8,197 nucleotides of DNA, taken from a bacterium. GTDB lineage: Bacteria > CSSED10-310 > JAJRTK01. Within the stretch, counting starts at the first letter, position 1. The number at the start of each line of letters is the position of its first letter. Made by a program: the position numbers and the translations under genes. The stretch is from NCBI GenBank assembly GCA_024278345.1, contig JAJRTK010000118.1, positions 1-8,197 of the forward strand. Reading direction: 5' to 3'. The notes below the pieces were generated by a model that saw only the letters and a program-made list of their open reading frames with translations, was not told where the DNA came from and did no database searches. Shown here in pieces: positions 1 to 8,197 of this stretch.

Positions 1-92
1 AGCGGTCTTCCTCTCTTCAGTTTCCGGGGCGGGAAACGACCTGGCAGCATGAAAAGCGGTCTTCCTCTCTTCAGTTTCCGGGGCGGGAAACG
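1..92. repeat. 54-bp tandem duplication, in frame, inside the minus-strand membrane gene
   Basis: Positions 1-38 and 55-92 are identical over 38 bases, with a period of 54 bp. On the minus strand the period equals 18 codons, so the coded protein repeats the unit AARPFPAPETEERKTAFH, with P/S variation in the fourth residue. The unit is proline- and glutamate-rich and hydrophilic. The first copy touches the window edge, so further copies may exist. Each copy also contains the small inverted repeat GTTTCC/GGAAAC around a 6-nt loop. Confidence 0.9.
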
Positions 93-564
93 GTCTAGCG
101 GCAGGATCATCACTTGTTTCCCCGGGTTTGTACGTTTCGCCTTCCGCCACGAACCCGCGGGCCGTGCCGGATGCCCGCTTCACCTCCCAACGGGCAAGAA
201 TAGAGAGGAGCAGCAAGAAAACCAGCACCGAGTTCGCCGCGTGAATCGCCACGTTGGTGATCAGGAAGGCCCGAGGCTCTCCACCGCCTCTCCACCAGTC
301 CAAAGCGAAGGTCAGACTTGGAAGGGGTCGGAACTTCATGGCGGGCTCCAGAAAGGCCCTGGCCAAATTGTCCAAACTGAGTCTCTCCATCCGGCAGGGA
401 GCATATTCGACAATGTTGGGAAAATCGTCGAAGTGAAAAGCGTTGTCAGGAGCCTCATGATAGACGAACGCCACCATCGCCCCCAGGAGAACAGCTCCCA
501 ATACAAGCCTTCTTCTAGAGGCCCGGCCTCGTGTGACATTTTTTCCCAAGCTTTCTGCCTCCAT
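1..564 (-). CDS. GT-C/TMTC-like integral membrane glycosyltransferase, N-terminal 188 residues (runs off left edge)
   Basis: This minus-strand frame is open from an ATG at 564-562, directly after three consecutive TGA stops, to the window edge, so only the N-terminus is visible. Residues about 20-37 form a first membrane helix after a basic stretch (RASRRR). An extracytoplasmic loop follows with HFDDFPNI at 44-51, and acidic DD residues in the first loop are typical of GT-C glycosyltransferases. Next come KFRPLPSLTFALDWW (78-91) and a second helix (about 101-125, ITNVAIHAANSVLVFLLLL). The order 'FDD..NI / RPL..LTFAL / N..IH..N..LVF.LL' matches what I recall of TMTC-type, often TPR-containing, membrane proteins. 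A hydrophilic insert then begins (about 128-188) and ends in an 18-residue tandem repeat. No good Shine-Dalgarno sequence precedes the ATG, so the start is less certain than the frame. The gene is divergent from the cytochrome cluster. A role in glycosylating exported proteins is only a guess. Confidence 0.78.
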   Translation of the reverse strand, partial: MEAESLGKNVTRGRASRRRLVLGAVLLGAMVAFVYHEAPDNAFHFDDFPNIVEYAPCRMERLSLDNLARAFLEPAMKFRPLPSLTFALDWWRGGGEPRAFLITNVAIHAANSVLVFLLLLSILARWEVKRASGTARGFVAEGETYKPGETSDDPAARPFPAPETEERKTAFHAARSFPAPETEERKTA

Positions 565-1254: not shown

Positions 1255-3042
1255 ATGAGTCTCCCTTTGGAAGAGTTACGGAGTGAGCACCCACCGGGAA
1301 AGAAGAGCATGGCACTGGCCGTGGTCGCCACGCTGGCCCTTGTCATCTCTTCGATCAGCTCGGCCGCTCACCCGCCGCTGATCGATCCGGAGTCCACGGA
1401 CTGCGGATCGTGCCACGCCAAGCTCACCCGCGGCTTCAAACAGGTCCACCCCCCCGCGGAAGAAGAGTGTGGAGCGTGCCACGAAGCCGTAGACGACGAC
1501 CAGGGGAAACGGTTCAAGCTGACGAAACCGGATCCCGAGCTTTGCCTTGGTTGCCATGACGAAAAAGAAAAGGCCGTAAAAGGAACTTTCTCTTCGGCCC
1601 ATCCTCCCGTCGCTGACTCCTGCCTTACCTGCCACTCCGCCCATGCCGCCAACCAATCCAAGCTCCTTTCGGAACCCGTGCCCGTTCTCTGTCTGGGCTG
1701 CCATGACATGGTGGATCTGGTGAAGCCCCACAAGGGGCAGGTGGGGAAGAAAACCAATTGCCTGCGCTGCCATGCTCCCCATGGCTCCCCCAACCCCAAG
1801 ATGCTCAACGCCTCCAATATCCATCCGCCCTTCAAAGCCGGAAGCTGCACCGCCTGCCACCTCAAGCCGATTATGGGGCGCGTGCGGTTTCGGGCACGAA
1901 GTGACAAACTGTGTGGCGCATGCCACAAGAAGATATCTCACCCCAAGGTGCAACCGAAAAGCGTACACGCAGCCATGAAGGGCAATCGCCGAAAGGCGGG
2001 ATGTCTCTCCTGCCACGACCCCCACTTGAGCCCACGCCCTTCTCTACTCTTGGCGAAGAATGACAACATCTGCGCGAGCTGCCACCAAGAGATTGTCGAG
2101 AAGGCCAAGGCTAAAACCGGTCATCCGCCAGCCAGTGAAGATTGCCTCAACTGCCACGTGCCTCATACTTCTCAGCAGCCGAAACTTCTCATAGAGCCGC
2201 CAGCGGATCTATGCGCAACCTGCCACGATCCCGGCGACGAGGTTCTCAAGAAGGCCCATCTTGGAGCGAATCTCAGGAAGCTCAACTGCCTCTCCTGCCA
2301 CACGCCCCATGGTTCAGGTCAGGAACACCTTCTTCACCGAAATGTACACGGCCCGGTCCTCTTCGGCTGCGACAACTGTCACAAGGGGAGGTACGACCAG
2401 TTCCTGGAAGACGGAAAAGCCGCCCTTTGCCTAAGTTGTCACGAAGACGTGGGGGACGAAATGAAGAAGGTCAAGATCGAGCATGGCGCCATGGAGGCGG
2501 GCGAATGCATCTTGTGCCACAATCCTCACGCCTCGAACCAAAGGCGACTCATCAAGGCACCAAATGGAGAGGAATGCCTATTCTGTCATGAAGATCAGGT
2601 GCCGGAACCAGGGGAACGCTCCCACGGAATTATCCAACTCATCGGATGTGAAGCCTGCCATGAACCCCACGGTGGAGATCGACCCATGTTTCTGCGAAAA
2701 ACTGGAAACGATCTGTGCCGCGCCTGCCACGACCCTGAGATTGCGCTGGACCAGGAAAAAGAAGGGATGATTCGCCTGCTCGATCAGTTCGACCTCCCCA
2801 AGGCCCTGGTGAAGCGCATGGCCAGGGTCGAGCTCAACGCGGACGGCGAACGTGGCCATCCCATTCCAAATCACCGGGTCTCGGGAGTTCCCACCAAAAA
2901 AGAGCTGAAAACCGTAGACACGACCTTCACCAGTGAATTGGCTTGCCTGACCTGCCACGATCCCCACAAGAGCAACGCTCTCAATCTTCTAAGAAAACAA
3001 GGCAACCGCATCATCGGCTGCGCCACCTGCCATCCCAAGTGA
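1255..3042 (+). CDS. Secreted 21-heme c-type cytochrome (doubled-CXXCH type)
   Basis: The protein contains 21 CXXCH heme-attachment motifs, the first at about residue 50 and the last at 589-593 of 595, with no other recognisable domain. Motifs mostly come in pairs: a His-containing lead (HPP or HG), then CxxCH-x-PH, a leucine-rich spacer, then LCxxCH. This is the arrangement of doubled-CXXCH and cytochrome c3-like families. One heme-free stretch lies at about 493-563 and contains GHPIPNH before the last two hemes. The hydrophobic segment ALAVVATLALVISSISSAA preceded by KKS is a Sec signal peptide, so the protein acts outside the cytoplasm. The start is uncertain. ATG 1255 gives an 18-residue n-region; ATG 1147 has AGGA seven bases upstream but leaves about 54 residues before the hydrophobic core; ATG 1309 leaves no basic residue. 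It is the first gene of the cluster, 18 bp before an NHL lipoprotein. It is likely a periplasmic or conduit electron carrier (inferred). Confidence 0.96.
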   Translation: MSLPLEELRSEHPPGKKSMALAVVATLALVISSISSAAHPPLIDPESTDCGSCHAKLTRGFKQVHPPAEEECGACHEAVDDDQGKRFKLTKPDPELCLGCHDEKEKAVKGTFSSAHPPVADSCLTCHSAHAANQSKLLSEPVPVLCLGCHDMVDLVKPHKGQVGKKTNCLRCHAPHGSPNPKMLNASNIHPPFKAGSCTACHLKPIMGRVRFRARSDKLCGACHKKISHPKVQPKSVHAAMKGNRRKAGCLSCHDPHLSPRPSLLLAKNDNICASCHQEIVEKAKAKTGHPPASEDCLNCHVPHTSQQPKLLIEPPADLCATCHDPGDEVLKKAHLGANLRKLNCLSCHTPHGSGQEHLLHRNVHGPVLFGCDNCHKGRYDQFLEDGKAALCLSCHEDVGDEMKKVKIEHGAMEAGECILCHNPHASNQRRLIKAPNGEECLFCHEDQVPEPGERSHGIIQLIGCEACHEPHGGDRPMFLRKTGNDLCRACHDPEIALDQEKEGMIRLLDQFDLPKALVKRMARVELNADGERGHPIPNHRVSGVPTKKELKTVDTTFTSELACLTCHDPHKSNALNLLRKQGNRIIGCATCHPK

Positions 3043-3060
3043 CCCGGAGGATCGCACCTG

Positions 3061-4104
3061 ATGGACCGCTCAATTCGGACACTCTGTTTTCTTCTGCTGG
3101 CTCTGCAGCTCGCGGCCTGCGTCCTTGCAACAAAGGGCAACAAAGGAGACAAGGACCCCTATGCCAAATACGTCTGGCCGCCTCCGCCGGCCGAGGCGAA
3201 GATCCGGCTCACGGAGATGATCCGCGGCCGGGCCAGTGTCGAGGCCGACTCCAAGCTCAAGAGAGCTCTCATCGGTGGAAGCAACAGATCTCGCTACGAC
3301 TGGCTGCTCAAGCCTTTCGACGTCGCTTATGACTCCCGGGGCCGCATTTTAGTCACCGATCCCGGAGTGGCGGCCCTGCTCAGATTTGATCGCGAGGGCA
3401 AACAGATGGATGTCCTGGGCACGCGGGGCGTCTTGCCCCTCAGCATCCCTCTGGGCGTCAATGTGGGGAAAGACGAGACCATCTACGTTGCCGACGGCGG
3501 TCTCAAGAACGTCGTTTCCTTCGACGAAAATGGTAAGCTCAGGGGCGTTTACGGCAAGCCCGGCGAGCTTCTGAATCCCACATCCACGGCCCTCTCTCCC
3601 AACGAATCGAAACTTTTCGTCACCGATTCCAAAGGCAACAAGGTCGTCGTCTTTGACGTCGCCACCGCCGATATGCTCTATGCCTTCGGCAAACTGGGCG
3701 TCGGTCCTGGAGAGCTCCACGCCCCCACTGACGCAATGTTCGGCCCCGACGGCAACCTCTTCGTCGTGGACCAGCTCAACTCCAGGGTCCAGGTGTTCAG
3801 CGAAGAAGGCGACCTTCTCGATTCCTTCGGATCCCGAGGCGTCGGGTTCGGAAACTTCGCCCGCCCCAAGGGAATCGCCGTTGATACCTTTGGTTTCATC
3901 TACGTCACGGACGGGGCCTTCAACAATATTCAAGTCTTTGACTACGATTTCGCCCTCCTCACCTTCGTCGGTACTGGAGGACGGAAACCGGGGCAGTTCA
4001 GCATCCCGTCTGGAATCGCCATCCGAGGGGATGAATTCGCCGTCGTGGATTCCCTGAACCGGCGGGTCCAGATCTTCCGATTCGTCCAGCCCAGAAGCGA
4101 ATAG
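3061..4104 (+). CDS. NHL-repeat beta-propeller lipoprotein (first copy)
   Basis: The start ATG has GGAGG at 3046-3050, ten bases upstream. Residues 1-20 are a lipoprotein signal peptide ending in the lipobox LAAC (Cys20), so the mature protein is probably lipid-anchored in the envelope. A short linker carries YVWPPPPAE (37-45), a motif shared with the second NHL protein of this window (YQWPP). From about residue 80 to 343 there are NHL-type blades of the form 'P.gva.d..g.i.VtD...n.vqvF...G', for example FVVDQLNSRVQVF and FAVVDSLNRRVQIF, consistent with a six-bladed propeller. Length is 347 residues. NHL propellers of this sort commonly lie beside multiheme cytochrome genes in electroactive bacteria. 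They have no heme motif and are thought to serve as binding scaffolds, but the exact role is not known. It is probably co-transcribed with the 21-heme gene. Confidence 0.93.
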   Translation: MDRSIRTLCFLLLALQLAACVLATKGNKGDKDPYAKYVWPPPPAEAKIRLTEMIRGRASVEADSKLKRALIGGSNRSRYDWLLKPFDVAYDSRGRILVTDPGVAALLRFDREGKQMDVLGTRGVLPLSIPLGVNVGKDETIYVADGGLKNVVSFDENGKLRGVYGKPGELLNPTSTALSPNESKLFVTDSKGNKVVVFDVATADMLYAFGKLGVGPGELHAPTDAMFGPDGNLFVVDQLNSRVQVFSEEGDLLDSFGSRGVGFGNFARPKGIAVDTFGFIYVTDGAFNNIQVFDYDFALLTFVGTGGRKPGQFSIPSGIAIRGDEFAVVDSLNRRVQIFRFVQPRSE

Positions 4105-4135
4105 TGGGTGGGCGTCGGCACGAGACTTGCTAACA

Positions 4136-4228
4136 GGGAGAGGTGGCAGCATAGCTAGGGAGAGATGGCAATCCTGAGCCACCATCGCATCGGTGGCAAA
4201 GAACGGCATTGAGTCTCTCCGTTGCTGC
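4136..4228 (+). promoter_or_regulatory. Structured leader RNA candidate upstream of the tetraheme gene
   Basis: Four nested helices can form: GCAGCA 4146-4151 with TGCTGC 4223-4228; GGAGAGA 4159-4165 with TCTCTCC 4214-4220; CAAT 4169-4172 with ATTG 4208-4211; and a terminal hairpin GCCACC 4178-4183 with GGTGGC 4192-4197. Together they give 23 base pairs. In addition GGGAGAGGTGGCA (4136-4148) is repeated with one mismatch at 4158-4170, so CTCTCC (4215-4220) can pair with either copy, which would allow two alternative folds. The structure ends 87 bases before the GTG start. It does not match the c-di-GMP/GEMM riboswitch consensus that I remember. Whether it is a riboswitch, a stability element or a protein site is unknown. 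Confidence 0.4.
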
Positions 4229-4315
4229 ATACGGTATCGGAATGTTTCTTGCTAGTTCTCTTGGCAGGAACTGTTTAATCCATTCGCTCACCACAAGATT
4301 AGGGAGGACGCGATC

Positions 4316-4951
4316 GTGAGACGTCAACTCTTTGTAGCCCTGGCAGTTTTTTTTCTGGCTCCGGCAGCATTCGCCGGGGTTTCTGGCACCGCTCATGACC
4401 TGAGTAGTGGCTCTGGCCCCAATCCGACCTACCGTGCGACCAACGTCAATCAGATTTGTGTGTTCTGCCACACGCCACACGCGGCCAGCCCCGCTGTGCC
4501 CCTTTGGAACCACAGCCTCAGTGCCGAGGGAGCCTACACGATGTACAGCAGCTCGACCATGGATTCTACGGCATGGGACTTTGCTGGCGGCACCGCTGTC
4601 TCGAACCTCTGCATGTCCTGCCACGACGGCACCGTCGCGGTTGGTGTGCTGGTGAACGATCCAGGCGGCGTGGCACCGGACAACAGTACGGCTGCGGACC
4701 GGATCACGGGCGTGGCAAACTTGGGCACCGATCTCTCCAACGATCACCCGGTCAACATGACCTACGACGCAGCCCTGGTGGCCGCCGATGGCGAGTTGGT
4801 GGCGGTGGGAAGCCTTCCCGGCACGATCCAGCTCTTCAACGGCACCGTGCAGTGCGCCTCTTGCCACGACCCCCACAACAACGCCAACGTTCCCTTCCTG
4901 GTCATGGCCAACACGGCCAGCGCTCTCTGCCTCTCTTGCCACGTGAAGTAG
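4316..4951 (+). CDS. Secreted tetraheme c-type cytochrome, OmcE-like, candidate filament subunit
   Basis: The GTG start has a strong ribosome site GGGAGGA (4302-4308) seven bases upstream. Residues 1-20 form a Sec signal peptide with cleavage after AFA. The mature protein of 191 residues has four CXXCH motifs (48-52, 99-103, 180-184, 205-209), the last almost at the C-terminus. Five further histidines (27, 55, 66, 144, 187) can supply the distal ligands for bis-His hemes. The N-terminal pattern GTAHDLS..., ICVFCHTPH, PLWNHSLS and a Y-rich stretch, then CMSCHDG, DHP, CASCHDPH and CLSCH, resembles as I recall it the tetraheme nanowire protein OmcE of Geobacter, which is of similar size. The layout is therefore compatible with an extracellular polymer. 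The stretch between hemes is rich in Ala, Ser, Asn and Thr. It lies between an NHL lipoprotein and a barrel gene and is followed directly by an intrinsic terminator. Heme count and export are certain; polymerisation is inference. Confidence 0.95.
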   Translation: MRRQLFVALAVFFLAPAAFAGVSGTAHDLSSGSGPNPTYRATNVNQICVFCHTPHAASPAVPLWNHSLSAEGAYTMYSSSTMDSTAWDFAGGTAVSNLCMSCHDGTVAVGVLVNDPGGVAPDNSTAADRITGVANLGTDLSNDHPVNMTYDAALVAADGELVAVGSLPGTIQLFNGTVQCASCHDPHNNANVPFLVMANTASALCLSCHVK

Positions 4952-4974
4952 CAAACCGCCGCGTCGCGTGATGC

Positions 4975-5006
4975 GGGCGGTGGCTTGATGCCGCCGCCCT
5001 TTTTTT
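4975..5006 (+). terminator. Strong Rho-independent terminator after the tetraheme gene
   Basis: GGGCGGTGGC (4975-4984) pairs fully with GCCGCCGCCC (4990-4999), including one U-G pair, around the loop TTGAT. Seven T's follow (5000-5006). It lies 23 bases after the tetraheme stop codon. ACCGCC at 4955-4960 can pair with GGCGGT at 4976-4981 and would compete with the terminator stem, so read-through control is possible. The barrel gene downstream therefore depends on read-through or on a promoter within 5007-5065. Confidence 0.92.
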
Positions 5007-5075
5007 GGGTCTCAATGCCCGAAGCTACCGAGATCCATCCCCTTAGAGTGATTGTTTTCTTTTCGGGAGGAGACC

Positions 5076-6881
5076 ATGCCCTCTTTGCGCCGCTTTCCCC
5101 TAGCCCTCCTCGTGGGCTGGCTCGTTTGCGGACCCTCCATGGCCCGCGCCCAGAGGTTTGGTCAATGGTCCTGGGACGCCTTTGTGGGAGTGGGGCAACG
5201 CCAAAACGAAACCCTCGATGACTCCGGACTCCTCAGTACATACGACCAGCGGAGAATCCGAACGATCCTGGGCCTCAATGGGTTCATCCTGCACCCCCAT
5301 ATCGGCCAATTTCGACTGGCGTTGAGTACATTGGCATCGAGATCCAAGACCCCGGAGAAACTGACGAATCAGTCGTGGGGAGCCTCGGGCGAGCTCGTGC
5401 TATTTCCCTATAACCACATTCCCATGACCTTCCACGCCGCACACAACATTCTTTCCTACGATGGGCTCACCCAGGAAGAGACTCAGACGTTCGGTATCCC
5501 GTCCAGCGTCACTTCTTGGGGGGGTACCATCAAAATACGTCGGGGTTTTTTGCCCGGTCTCCGTTTCGCGACGGACTACTCACTGATCAAGTTTGAAGAT
5601 CCCGGCATCAACGACCAACTTCACGAAAACCAGGTGTTGAGCTGGGCCACGTCCAGTGGAAAGGCCCGTCATCGGATTGTGGCAAGCCGCAGAAAGAAAC
5701 AGTATGGCATCATCCCCCTGACCACTGAGGATTGGACTCTTGACATCCAAGAACACCTCGAGCTTGGTAAGCGATGGACCTGGGACCTGTTCAACCTGGG
5801 AATCCTTCGGGACACAACGTATGAAACTGAAGAGCAAACCACCAACCAGAACACCGATCTCCTTCAGCTCCAGAACCGCCTGAACCGGACCTTTCGCAAA
5901 AATGACATCTTCTCCCTGGGCTATTCCCTCGGACTGACACGCAACAACGACGGCGCCACGGCCCAAGGCCACTCGAGCAGTGTCAGCTACAGTTGGACGG
6001 CTCGAGAGAACCTGCGTTTGACTCCCAGTCTCTCCTTCGCTTTTTCCCGTTTCGAAAGCAGGAAAAGCTATGCTCCTGGGGCCAGCCTTGCCGCCATCTG
6101 GAACCGCAACTTTGGCCCTGTCGATCTTGTCGTCAACGGCAACGTATCGTACAATGAGATCCGCCGCGACACCGTGGATGGAACAGGCAAGGAAAGCAGC
6201 CTGGGATTCGGGACCGACATCTCGATCCGAGATGCCACGGGTTCGAAGCTCAATAAAGAACTTTCGATTCTCCTTGCTCGCAACGAGCTCCGGATCAACG
6301 ACCAGGTGTTGACGGATCTCCCCGATCTGGGGATCTCCACCACCGAGCTTTCCCTGCAAGATCAAGTAAAGATCCGTCTCACAATGGACCGGCAGTGGGG
6401 ACGGGCAAGGCTCTCCAGCTACCTTGATTGGCAGCTTTTGAGGAACTCGGGTGGTTCAGAGACCCCAGACTTCACCAGGCAGACCTGGCAACATAATCTC
6501 AATCTGGACTGGCGGTTGCTCACGCTCTCTACGACCGGCAACTTAATTTATCTGCGCCAGGAGGAAAGCCGCAAGATCGCCTCTGTCTATGCTTTCCTTG
6601 GTTGGAAACCATGGAGGCGTTTGCGAACGAAGCTCTATTACCGTTATGAACTTCGGGAGTTCGACATCACCAGTGCTTCCAAACGGGATCGTTTTGGCGC
6701 CAGTCTGGCTATTGGGGTCGGCGATTACTCGTTGAACGGAAGTGTTTACTATGGCAGGGACGCTCCTGGAAGCGACAACGAAAACATCTATCAGGGCTTT
6801 TCCTGGACGATTTCCAGACGCTTTGCGGGATGGCTTCCCTTCATTTCCAATGTGGGGCGTCGCCGAGGAGTCATTCTGTGA
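5076..6881 (+). CDS. Predicted outer-membrane beta-barrel protein, candidate porin partner of the cytochromes
   Basis: The ATG at 5076 follows GGGAGGAG (5065-5072). Residues 1-25 are a Sec signal peptide ending in ARA before Gln26. The mature protein (576 residues) has no cysteine and no heme motif. It consists of many short amphipathic segments alternating with polar turns, rich in aromatic residues, Arg, Ser, Thr and Asn, for example WSWDAFVGVGQRQN, LFNLGILRDTTYET, FSLGYSLGLTRNND and LRTKLYYRYELREF. This is the look of a large outer-membrane barrel with perhaps 20 or more strands. The end (SWTISRRFAGWLPF then a basic tail) lacks a terminal aromatic residue. I do not recognise a named family. 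The setting beside a 21-heme and small extracellular cytochromes suggests the porin sheath of a porin-cytochrome conduit or a secretion pore for a filament; both are inference. Its stop overlaps the next start by 4 bp. Confidence 0.83.
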   Translation: MPSLRRFPLALLVGWLVCGPSMARAQRFGQWSWDAFVGVGQRQNETLDDSGLLSTYDQRRIRTILGLNGFILHPHIGQFRLALSTLASRSKTPEKLTNQSWGASGELVLFPYNHIPMTFHAAHNILSYDGLTQEETQTFGIPSSVTSWGGTIKIRRGFLPGLRFATDYSLIKFEDPGINDQLHENQVLSWATSSGKARHRIVASRRKKQYGIIPLTTEDWTLDIQEHLELGKRWTWDLFNLGILRDTTYETEEQTTNQNTDLLQLQNRLNRTFRKNDIFSLGYSLGLTRNNDGATAQGHSSSVSYSWTARENLRLTPSLSFAFSRFESRKSYAPGASLAAIWNRNFGPVDLVVNGNVSYNEIRRDTVDGTGKESSLGFGTDISIRDATGSKLNKELSILLARNELRINDQVLTDLPDLGISTTELSLQDQVKIRLTMDRQWGRARLSSYLDWQLLRNSGGSETPDFTRQTWQHNLNLDWRLLTLSTTGNLIYLRQEESRKIASVYAFLGWKPWRRLRTKLYYRYELREFDITSASKRDRFGASLAIGVGDYSLNGSVYYGRDAPGSDNENIYQGFSWTISRRFAGWLPFISNVGRRRGVIL

Positions 6882-7912
6882 CCGGGGATAGGGAGGTCTA
6901 TTCGGGGGAACTGGAACCGTACAGGGTTCCAATCTTTGGGCTCCTGCTCCTTGCCATGACTCTGGCCGTGGGGGGCTGTTCCCGAATCCGGAAGCCCATG
7001 GAACCAGATCTGGCAAGTTACCAGTGGCCTCCGGGCGACCCCAAGGTCCGGCTCGTGGAGGTCCTTGACGGAAGTTCGGGCACCCGCCGGGGGTTTCTCT
7101 CACGCTGGGCAGGGCTGCGCAAATCCAAGCAGCTCTTCCGCCGGCCATTCGGGATCGCATGGGCTGGCAGCGATCTGCTGATCGCCGATCCTGGCGCAGG
7201 GCGCGTCTTCTTGCTCACGGGGGATGGCCAGATCAGAAGAAGTGCCGCCAATCTCTTCGAAAGCCCTATCGGAGTCGCTGCATGCGGAGGCAAGCTCTTC
7301 GTGAGCGATTCCAAAACAGGTAAGATCGCACGGCTATCACGTCAGCTTCGGGTGGAAGAATGGATCGCGGAAGACCTTCAAAGGCCCACGGGGCTGGCTT
7401 GCGGGCCGCGAGGAGTTTTTATCGCGGAGACGGCGCGGCATCGCATCGTCATCATTCGTCCCGATGCCTCCCGCGGAACCGTGGGCCGCAGAGGAGAGAA
7501 AATGGGGGAATTCAACTATCCGACGACTCTCTCTCTCAAAGGCGATTTCCTGTGGGTGGGCGATACGCTCAATTTTCGAGTGCAAAGGATTGACTTGTCA
7601 ACCCAAACGGCATCCAAGGCTTTTGGGAAACTTGGTGACTCTCCTGGGGAAATGCCCAGAATCAAGGGAATCGCCGTCGATTCGGTAGGCCGGCTTTGGA
7701 TCTCTGACGGATACCTGGACCAAGTGTCGATCTACGATGAAAACGGTAATTTCTTGCTTTCTATGGGCAGAAGAGGGGCAGGTCCGGCGGAGTTTACTTT
7801 TCCCGCTGGAATTGCGGCGAACCCCGATGGCAGAATCGCCATCGCCGACTCCCTCAACGGTAGAATCCAGATCTTCCAGAACCTCTCATCGAATGTCGGG
7901 GGAGACAAATAA
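6878..7912 (+). CDS. NHL-repeat beta-propeller lipoprotein (second copy)
   Basis: The chosen start is GTG 6878, which overlaps the barrel stop in a GTGA arrangement and has GAGGAG (6865-6870) seven bases upstream. An ATG at 6830 in the same frame would lengthen the overlap and the n-region and is less likely. The hydrophobic segment (about 17-33) ends in the lipobox VGGC with Cys34, so a lipid anchor is predicted. The linker carries SYQWPP (47-52), like the first NHL protein. Blades continue to the C-terminus, ending in IAIADSLNGRIQIF, close to AVVDSLNRRVQIF of the first copy. Length is 344 residues. The two NHL proteins are clearly paralogous but divergent. The gene is probably translationally coupled on both sides: its stop TAA shares a base with the next ATG. 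The likely role is an envelope scaffold or assembly factor for the barrel and cytochrome; this is inferred from context. Confidence 0.92.
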   Translation: MTGDREVYSGELEPYRVPIFGLLLLAMTLAVGGCSRIRKPMEPDLASYQWPPGDPKVRLVEVLDGSSGTRRGFLSRWAGLRKSKQLFRRPFGIAWAGSDLLIADPGAGRVFLLTGDGQIRRSAANLFESPIGVAACGGKLFVSDSKTGKIARLSRQLRVEEWIAEDLQRPTGLACGPRGVFIAETARHRIVIIRPDASRGTVGRRGEKMGEFNYPTTLSLKGDFLWVGDTLNFRVQRIDLSTQTASKAFGKLGDSPGEMPRIKGIAVDSVGRLWISDGYLDQVSIYDENGNFLLSMGRRGAGPAEFTFPAGIAANPDGRIAIADSLNGRIQIFQNLSSNVGGDK

Positions 7913-8197
7913 TGGAACGAGTCCCAAGTGGAAAAGGGTCTTTCTCTGGTAGGCACAGAGCCTTCCATGGGATTTTTCTCATCTTGGCGGCTAGCGCGCT
8001 GGAGGCTGGCCCCGCCCGAGCCCAACAGGGAAGAGTGACAGAGACGCTTCACAACTTGTCAGCCTCGGGGCCGGGGAAAATTCGCTCCCAGAGTGAGACT
8101 CAAGTCTGTAAGTTCTGCCACATCCCCCACAGCGCCGTGGTTCCGGTTCCGTTGTGGGGACATGCCCTCTCTCGGGTCAAGGGGTACGACGTTCCGC
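7912..8197 (+). CDS. Second OmcE-like secreted multiheme cytochrome, N-terminal 95 residues (cut by right edge)
   Basis: The ATG at 7912 shares its A with the stop TAA of the NHL gene and has GGAG (7901-7904) seven bases upstream. Residues 1-37 form a signal peptide with a long n-region (RHRAFH), core GIFLILAASAL and a cleavage site after ARA. The visible mature part aligns with the tetraheme cytochrome upstream: TLHNLS corresponds to TAHDLS, VCKFCHIPH (65-73) to ICVFCHTPH, and PLWGHALS to PLWNHSLS. One CXXCH motif (66-70) is inside the window. The remaining hemes should lie beyond the edge, so the total number is unknown. It is likely another extracellular electron-transfer cytochrome of the same family, possibly an alternative filament subunit. 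Confidence 0.92.
   Translation, partial: MERVPSGKGSFSGRHRAFHGIFLILAASALEAGPARAQQGRVTETLHNLSASGPGKIRSQSETQVCKFCHIPHSAVVPVPLWGHALSRVKGYDVP

Follow-up and report, generated by a model that had tools for sequence, protein, structure and literature searches.

The stretch of DNA analysed here (the window) comprises 8,197 nucleotides and represents the entire contig C37, one of the 550 contigs of a 6.06-Mb draft bacterial genome. It contains a cluster of genes for multiheme c-type cytochromes and their potential partners, which lie on the plus strand in the order 21-heme cytochrome, NHL beta-propeller lipoprotein 1 (NHL1), tetraheme OmcE-like cytochrome (cytochrome 1), predicted outer-membrane beta-barrel, NHL beta-propeller lipoprotein 2 (NHL2) and start of a second OmcE-like cytochrome. 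Because the window spans the whole contig, its end coordinate is a break in the assembly and not the end of the locus. All of these parts had been listed in an earlier note on this DNA and were recovered where it had placed them, with 21 CxxCH motifs, Pfam matches and lipoboxes for the NHL proteins, a match to OmcE and a predicted barrel.

The 21-heme multiheme cytochrome (1255..3042, + strand) starts with an ATG at 1255 or 1309 and has a signal peptide. It contains exactly 21 CxxCH motifs (Paired_CXXCH_1, 1.8e-87), compared with a mean of 0.23 and a maximum of 3 in 2000 residue-shuffled versions. An alignment of seven homologues with 21 CxxCH each (the window, L014, L015, L060, L135, L136 and L137) revealed 42 invariant histidines, of which 21 belong to the motifs and exactly 21 lie elsewhere. 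The additional histidines are candidate second ligands, one for each heme, and therefore form the pattern that would be expected if every heme is held by two histidines. The best solved relative is chain A of 6r2q (E=3.8e-12), which we take to be MtrA, as the entry is named as the Mtr complex although our table names the chain cystathionine beta-synthase; all matches in the PDB are local only. The cutoff of the DmsE-type decaheme model TIGR03508 is exceeded by the repeats by 0.7 bit. A related open reading frame (ORF) with 42 hemes, exactly double the number, was found in a metagenome-assembled genome of the Holophagaceae (L046, 12993-16118) and possibly arose by tandem duplication or fusion.

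Cytochrome 1 (4316..4951, + strand) is an OmcE-family protein of 211 amino acids with a GTG start, a signal peptide and four CxxCH heme sites. In the PDB search, Geobacter OmcE (7tfs) matched it from end to end (E=1.5e-45), with 52% identity in the alignment; a further match was the deposited multiheme cytochrome 9yuq (6.5e-34). Candidate distal histidines were located at positions 27, 55, 144 and 187. Conservation of these four positions is 95-100% among 85 tetraheme relatives and 99-100% among 70 undecaheme or split relatives. OmcE-like proteins of this kind might instead act as single surface cytochromes without forming filaments: their link to filaments is by sequence alone, and the relatives include large 11-heme fusions which may well polymerise differently or not at all. 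Nevertheless, we regard this as unlikely in view of the end-to-end identity to OmcE and because every candidate ligand histidine is present, the N-terminal H27 among them.

The second OmcE-like gene (7912..8197, + strand) runs into the contig end after 95 residues and one CxxCH. This N-terminal part aligns with 4-heme orthologues in L014, L015, L136 and L137, all of which have four CxxCH. In 11-heme proteins of other phyla, the N-terminal half aligns with the 4-heme protein and the C-terminal half with the 7-heme protein encoded next to it in related loci; the undecaheme protein and the pair of 4-heme and 7-heme proteins therefore appear to be fused and split forms of one thing. The 7-heme gene of the source genome was identified at the end of contig C56 (L114, 8749-9828), in the right orientation and 52% identical to that of L014. 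Judging by the lengths of the orthologues, C37 probably adjoins C56 in the genome, with about 0.5 kb missing in between, and the junction between the 4-heme and the 7-heme gene falls within this assembly gap. Convergent to the 7-heme gene, C56 also carries a third OmcE-like cytochrome with 5 CxxCH (L114, 7883-8713, + strand). Elsewhere in the same genome are overlapping 9-heme and 16-heme ORFs (L151, 6140-9447), a 13-heme protein (L115, 7628-9202) and, on contig C40, a run of NHL, 4-heme and 7-heme (1362 amino acids) genes (L011, 1-7784). A search of this genome for a NapC-type quinol dehydrogenase gave a single match, weak and partial, within a multiheme ORF, and an inner-membrane partner was not identified.

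The gene at 5076..6881 (+ strand) encodes a protein of 601 amino acids with a signal peptide and without a match in Pfam or NCBIfam. An AlphaFold2 model, calculated with seven homologues, shows 28 predicted strands and no plug domain (mean predicted local distance difference test score, pLDDT, 83.5). MtrB (6r2q_B) is ranked first by VIA-align with a Z score of 18.0 over 457 aligned residues, followed by the next match with 15.0. By profile comparison, the protein belongs to a cross-phylum barrel family as a divergent member (probability 98.5, E=2e-15, 545 columns), and 59 of 66 relatives end with a phenylalanine, as outer-membrane barrels do. No match to the barrel was obtained in plasmid records.

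Both NHL proteins are predicted lipoproteins. NHL1 (3061..4104, + strand; Pfam NHL 4.3e-21) has the lipobox LAAC, while the VGGC lipobox of NHL2 (6878..7912, + strand; Pfam NHL 3.2e-20) is less typical. The best start of NHL2 is the GTG at 6878, which overlaps the stop codon of the barrel gene in the sequence GTGA and is preceded by GAGGAG; an ATG at 6830 was rejected in its favour. The last three genes of the window overlap, as NHL2 and the second OmcE-like gene also have a single base in common.

Conservation of the gene set and NHL pairing

An alignment of the OmcE family was scanned against 84,980 genomes, which yielded 80 loci from many phyla. G. sulfurreducens was outside this set, in which the best identity to OmcE was 65%. 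An NHL gene adjoins the cytochrome gene in 74 of the 80 loci and a barrel-family gene is present in 66, or in 25 of the 27 whose flanks are complete. The commonest order is 13-heme, OmcE-like (4 hemes), NHL, 5-heme, barrel, NHL and 11-heme. As these loci had been picked by their cytochrome, the search was repeated from the barrel. Matches were obtained in 6 of 297 Acidobacteriota genomes and at eight places in 7 of 387 Verrucomicrobiota genomes, counts which include for each phylum set one previously known genome used as search centre, and all of them lie beside NHL and/or cytochrome genes.

The order of the window was also found in six other genomes (L014, L015, L016, L135, L136 and L137), which are Acidobacteriota records or were found within Acidobacteriota. 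In full, the order of this subtype is 21-heme, NHL, OmcE-like (4 hemes), an isomerase in some, barrel, NHL, OmcE-like (4 hemes) and 7-heme. L060 contains the first part of the locus with the same 21 hemes. A gene for a peptidyl-prolyl isomerase (PPIase) lies between the OmcE-like and barrel genes in L015, L016, L060 and L136. The scripted gene calling had flaws: one pass contained the 21-heme ORF and the second OmcE-like ORF of L016, which were displaced in another, and in L135 NHL2 remained uncalled and the second OmcE-like gene was seen in one pass only. Among all OmcE loci the 21-heme protein occurs mainly in this Acidobacteriota-like subtype, which is compact, with nearly all parts in one gene run, and keeps a constant number of 21 hemes across its seven genomes, which represent two or more phyla. 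A Nitrospirota locus (L149, 3478-11505) has the split form in the order NHL, OmcE-like, isomerase, barrel, NHL, OmcE-like (4 hemes) and 7-heme, with no 21-heme gene nearby.

The conserved order and the frequent adjacency of NHL and barrel genes to the OmcE-like gene bear out the proposal of the earlier note that the parts form one system. That note had named barrel and NHL homologues mostly away from cytochromes, or structure predictions without a barrel, as evidence to the contrary; neither was observed, given the surroundings of every barrel-first match and the 28-strand model. The gene order conserved in seven genomes refutes the idea that unrelated cytochrome and barrel genes lie together by chance. 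Mis-binning of the contig could be suspected, as the closest relatives are in Acidobacteriota and the barrel search found no match in the 7 other genomes of the source phylum, which is represented by 8 genomes in the search set. However, the tetranucleotide profile of C37 is more similar to contigs of its own genome (0.81-0.94) than to most of the Acidobacteriota loci (0.63-0.86). Both explanations taken together are considered highly improbable. The locus extends the known kind of cluster to a little-sampled phylum.

In a tree of 151 NHL proteins, the ones encoded beside a tetraheme OmcE-like gene (NHL-A type) are separated from those preceding an 11-heme gene or its 4-heme and 7-heme equivalent (NHL-B type). 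NHL1 belongs to clade A, within a group of 68 (support 0.95) that lacks B-labelled members. NHL2 belongs to the B type; its group of 61 includes 50 B-type members and one A-type member, and the deep supports there are low. Since the tree is split by cytochrome, each NHL protein seems to have been tied to its own cytochrome since before the lineages spread, and the two genes seem to be ancient paralogues, each with its own cytochrome partner. This specific pairing is the strongest hint at the job of the NHL proteins. As the paralogues follow their cytochromes through many phyla, it leads to a testable prediction of which protein serves which.

Comparison with known clusters

The earlier note could not name the arrangement. 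This part of it did not hold, as the composition is close to that of a described cluster, Uet (PMC10734462), and overlaps with that of another, osc (PMC13194489). Judged by gene content, the locus is a distinct subtype of a known and widespread kind of cluster. The kind itself is known, and the subtype is undescribed as far as the literature consulted shows.

The Uet cluster (uetABCDEFGHIJ) of Candidatus Tenderia, Tenderiales and some Gallionella encodes, besides an isomerase, a barrel and a pair of NHL proteins, one undecaheme, one extracellular tetraheme and three triheme cytochromes (PMC10734462). A tetraheme cytochrome, a barrel, two NHL genes and further multiheme cytochromes are common to Uet and the window, with the barrel of the window placed by profile in the cross-phylum family and not directly with UetC. 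The window has one 21-heme gene and no triheme gene, whereas Uet has three triheme cytochromes (UetDEG). A PPIase gene (UetB in Uet) is absent at the window locus, where 124 bp separate the OmcE-like and barrel genes, the rest of the genome not being part of this search. In the relatives of the window, two separate genes with 4 and 7 hemes together correspond to the undecaheme UetJ. Because triheme and isomerase genes are missing, we did not file the window as Uet. Two other loci, L078 and L092, have nearly the Uet make-up with two triheme genes.

Uet also bears on the direction of electron flow. It is the closest cluster in composition and has been attributed to electron uptake in Tenderiales (PMC12575090). 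By analogy, the locus could serve uptake from iron, electrodes or partner cells and not output. On the other hand, the same parts occur in loci of Geobacter and Desulfuromonadales, groups which are known for electron output. Gene content cannot decide the direction because heme wires conduct both ways; we consider uptake possible, yet the less probable direction.

In G. sulfurreducens, the osc cluster is described as determining folding, secretion and shape of OmcS filaments, with OscD as morphology factor, OscEFG for secretion and the large cytochromes OscI and OscJ (PMC13194489). As in the window, a filament cytochrome is accompanied by companion genes, and the compositions overlap. In contrast, OmcS is a hexaheme protein, while cytochrome 1 is a tetraheme protein which matched OmcE and not OmcS in the PDB search. 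The window is not filed as osc because its filament cytochrome is of the OmcE type. OscD is reportedly a beta-propeller and OscH a prolyl isomerase (Shen et al. 2025). An isomerase of the OscH type is absent from the window.

Gene neighbourhoods around OmcE itself are similar in part. A Geobacter relative has a multiheme cytochrome, an NHL protein, OmcE and a protein of 765 amino acids in a window-like order (L130), but a run of NHL, OmcE-like and 7-heme genes is located elsewhere in its genome (L131). The 765-aa protein was tried as counterpart of the barrel and rejected, as profile comparison with the barrel families showed no relation; for this reason, we make no claim of a barrel shared with Geobacter. 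Among seven Geobacterales genomes, the cross-phylum barrel profile matched in Geomonas alone and not in the nearest Geobacter genomes. In Geoalkalibacter, OmcE homologues occur together with two NHL proteins (PMC12016550). NHL genes with surface cytochromes were described in Desulfovibrio ferrophilus, where deletion of the cytochromes did not stop iron reduction (PMC9769857).

The Mtr complex (MtrAB(C), 6r2q) resembles the window, whose barrel is predicted to be large and plugless, with MtrB as top match of the barrel model in VIA-align and many other barrels matching more weakly. MtrA is likewise a multiheme protein with doubled CxxCH motifs and matches the 21-heme protein locally. The 21 hemes of the window differ from the 10 of MtrA, and the 28 predicted strands differ from the 26 of MtrB (PMC12133095). 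Furthermore, the window has no decaheme cytochrome of the MtrC type, and Mtr includes neither NHL nor OmcE-like proteins.

A barrel of this size could also be a secretion pore for the OmcE-like cytochromes and not a sheath, in which case the 21-heme protein would be only a periplasmic carrier or bridge. OscEFG is proposed as the secretion channel for OmcS (PMC13194489). The distribution points in the same direction, with a barrel homologue in most OmcE loci and the 21-heme protein largely confined to one subtype, as does the folding factor (PPIase) encoded between the OmcE-like and barrel genes of several relatives. The top VIA-align match of the model is nevertheless MtrB, a wire sheath, no plug or periplasmic gate domain is predicted, and the 765-aa neighbour of OmcE in the Geobacter relative has no profile match to the window barrel. 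We therefore regard a pure secretion pore as rather doubtful.

Proposed electron path

Little is known about the assembly and anchoring of cytochrome filaments (PMC12307469), and their secretion and wiring to the cell is the question on which this locus bears. It probably makes an electron path across the outer membrane that ends in OmcE-type cytochrome filaments. As far as the known families are a guide, the 21-heme protein would be exported via its signal peptide and serve as a long periplasmic wire of bis-histidine hemes. Through the predicted 28-strand barrel, heme proteins would cross the outer membrane or be lodged in it, and cytochrome 1 would be secreted and polymerise outside. The second cytochrome pair (4-heme and 7-heme, the split form of undecaheme UetJ) may link wire and filament or form the extracellular end. 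Each NHL lipoprotein may be the dedicated partner of one cytochrome in folding, docking or anchoring.

Several observations weigh against this path. The filament formation of cytochrome 1 is expected by homology to OmcE, and the second OmcE-like gene is incomplete. The AlphaFold model of the 21-heme protein is unusable for its fit in the barrel (pLDDT 36.8). Foldseek ranks FecA first and MtrB only 13th for the barrel model, which is also matched by barrels of other functions (LptD, ushers and TonB-dependent receptors). "Large outer-membrane barrel" is therefore firm, while "MtrB-like" is a preference. Whether Geobacter needs cytochrome filaments physiologically is a matter of dispute (PMC11077965).

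A more specific version of the electron path would be a single launching device, in which the 21-heme wire spans the periplasm, is held in the barrel and is capped by the 4-heme and 7-heme pair from which the OmcE filament grows, with each NHL paralogue as assembly factor of one cytochrome. If true, the filament would be physically rooted in a trans-membrane heme conduit. We offer this version tentatively and think it improbable. Worth following in any case are the 21-heme subtype with its compact layout, the splitting of the undecaheme and the NHL paralogues with their specificity for one cytochrome each.

Candidate regulatory signals and neighbouring sequence

Directly 3' of the gene for cytochrome 1, a terminator-like hairpin was identified (4975..4999, + strand). 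It is GC-rich, with 9 G-C among 10 pairs, and is followed by seven T. Hairpins were found after the OmcE-like gene in all seven other loci folded (L014, L015, L016, L060, L135, L136 and L137). Their position is conserved, their sequences are unlike, and the z score is below -3 in 7 of the 8 loci, including the window. Such a hairpin could yield more OmcE-like than barrel protein, as a filament subunit would need.

The intergenic region upstream of cytochrome 1 (4105..4315, + strand) contains a candidate sigma-54-like -24/-12 site at 4116-4130 with 9 of 10 positions, a score reached by 44 of 5000 shuffles. Across the whole window the sigma-54 pattern occurs at chance level, and only the placement in the intergenic gap favours the candidate. 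Sites with 9-10 of 10 positions also precede the OmcE-like gene in L136, L016 and L060, and none was found upstream of it in L014 or L137. NtrC-type activators with a sigma-54 interaction domain are encoded beside related clusters (L015, L136, L040 and L132 were tested), at 4856-6214 in L015, 2572-3579 in L136 and 1937-3328 in L040; none is visible in the window. Sigma-70 sites in the window are no more frequent than by chance, and an Rfam scan of it gave no matches. At the other end of the contig, positions 1-564 (- strand) encode the N-terminal part of a probable multi-pass membrane protein without a Pfam match, which carries the short tandem repeat FPAPETEERKTA at its end.

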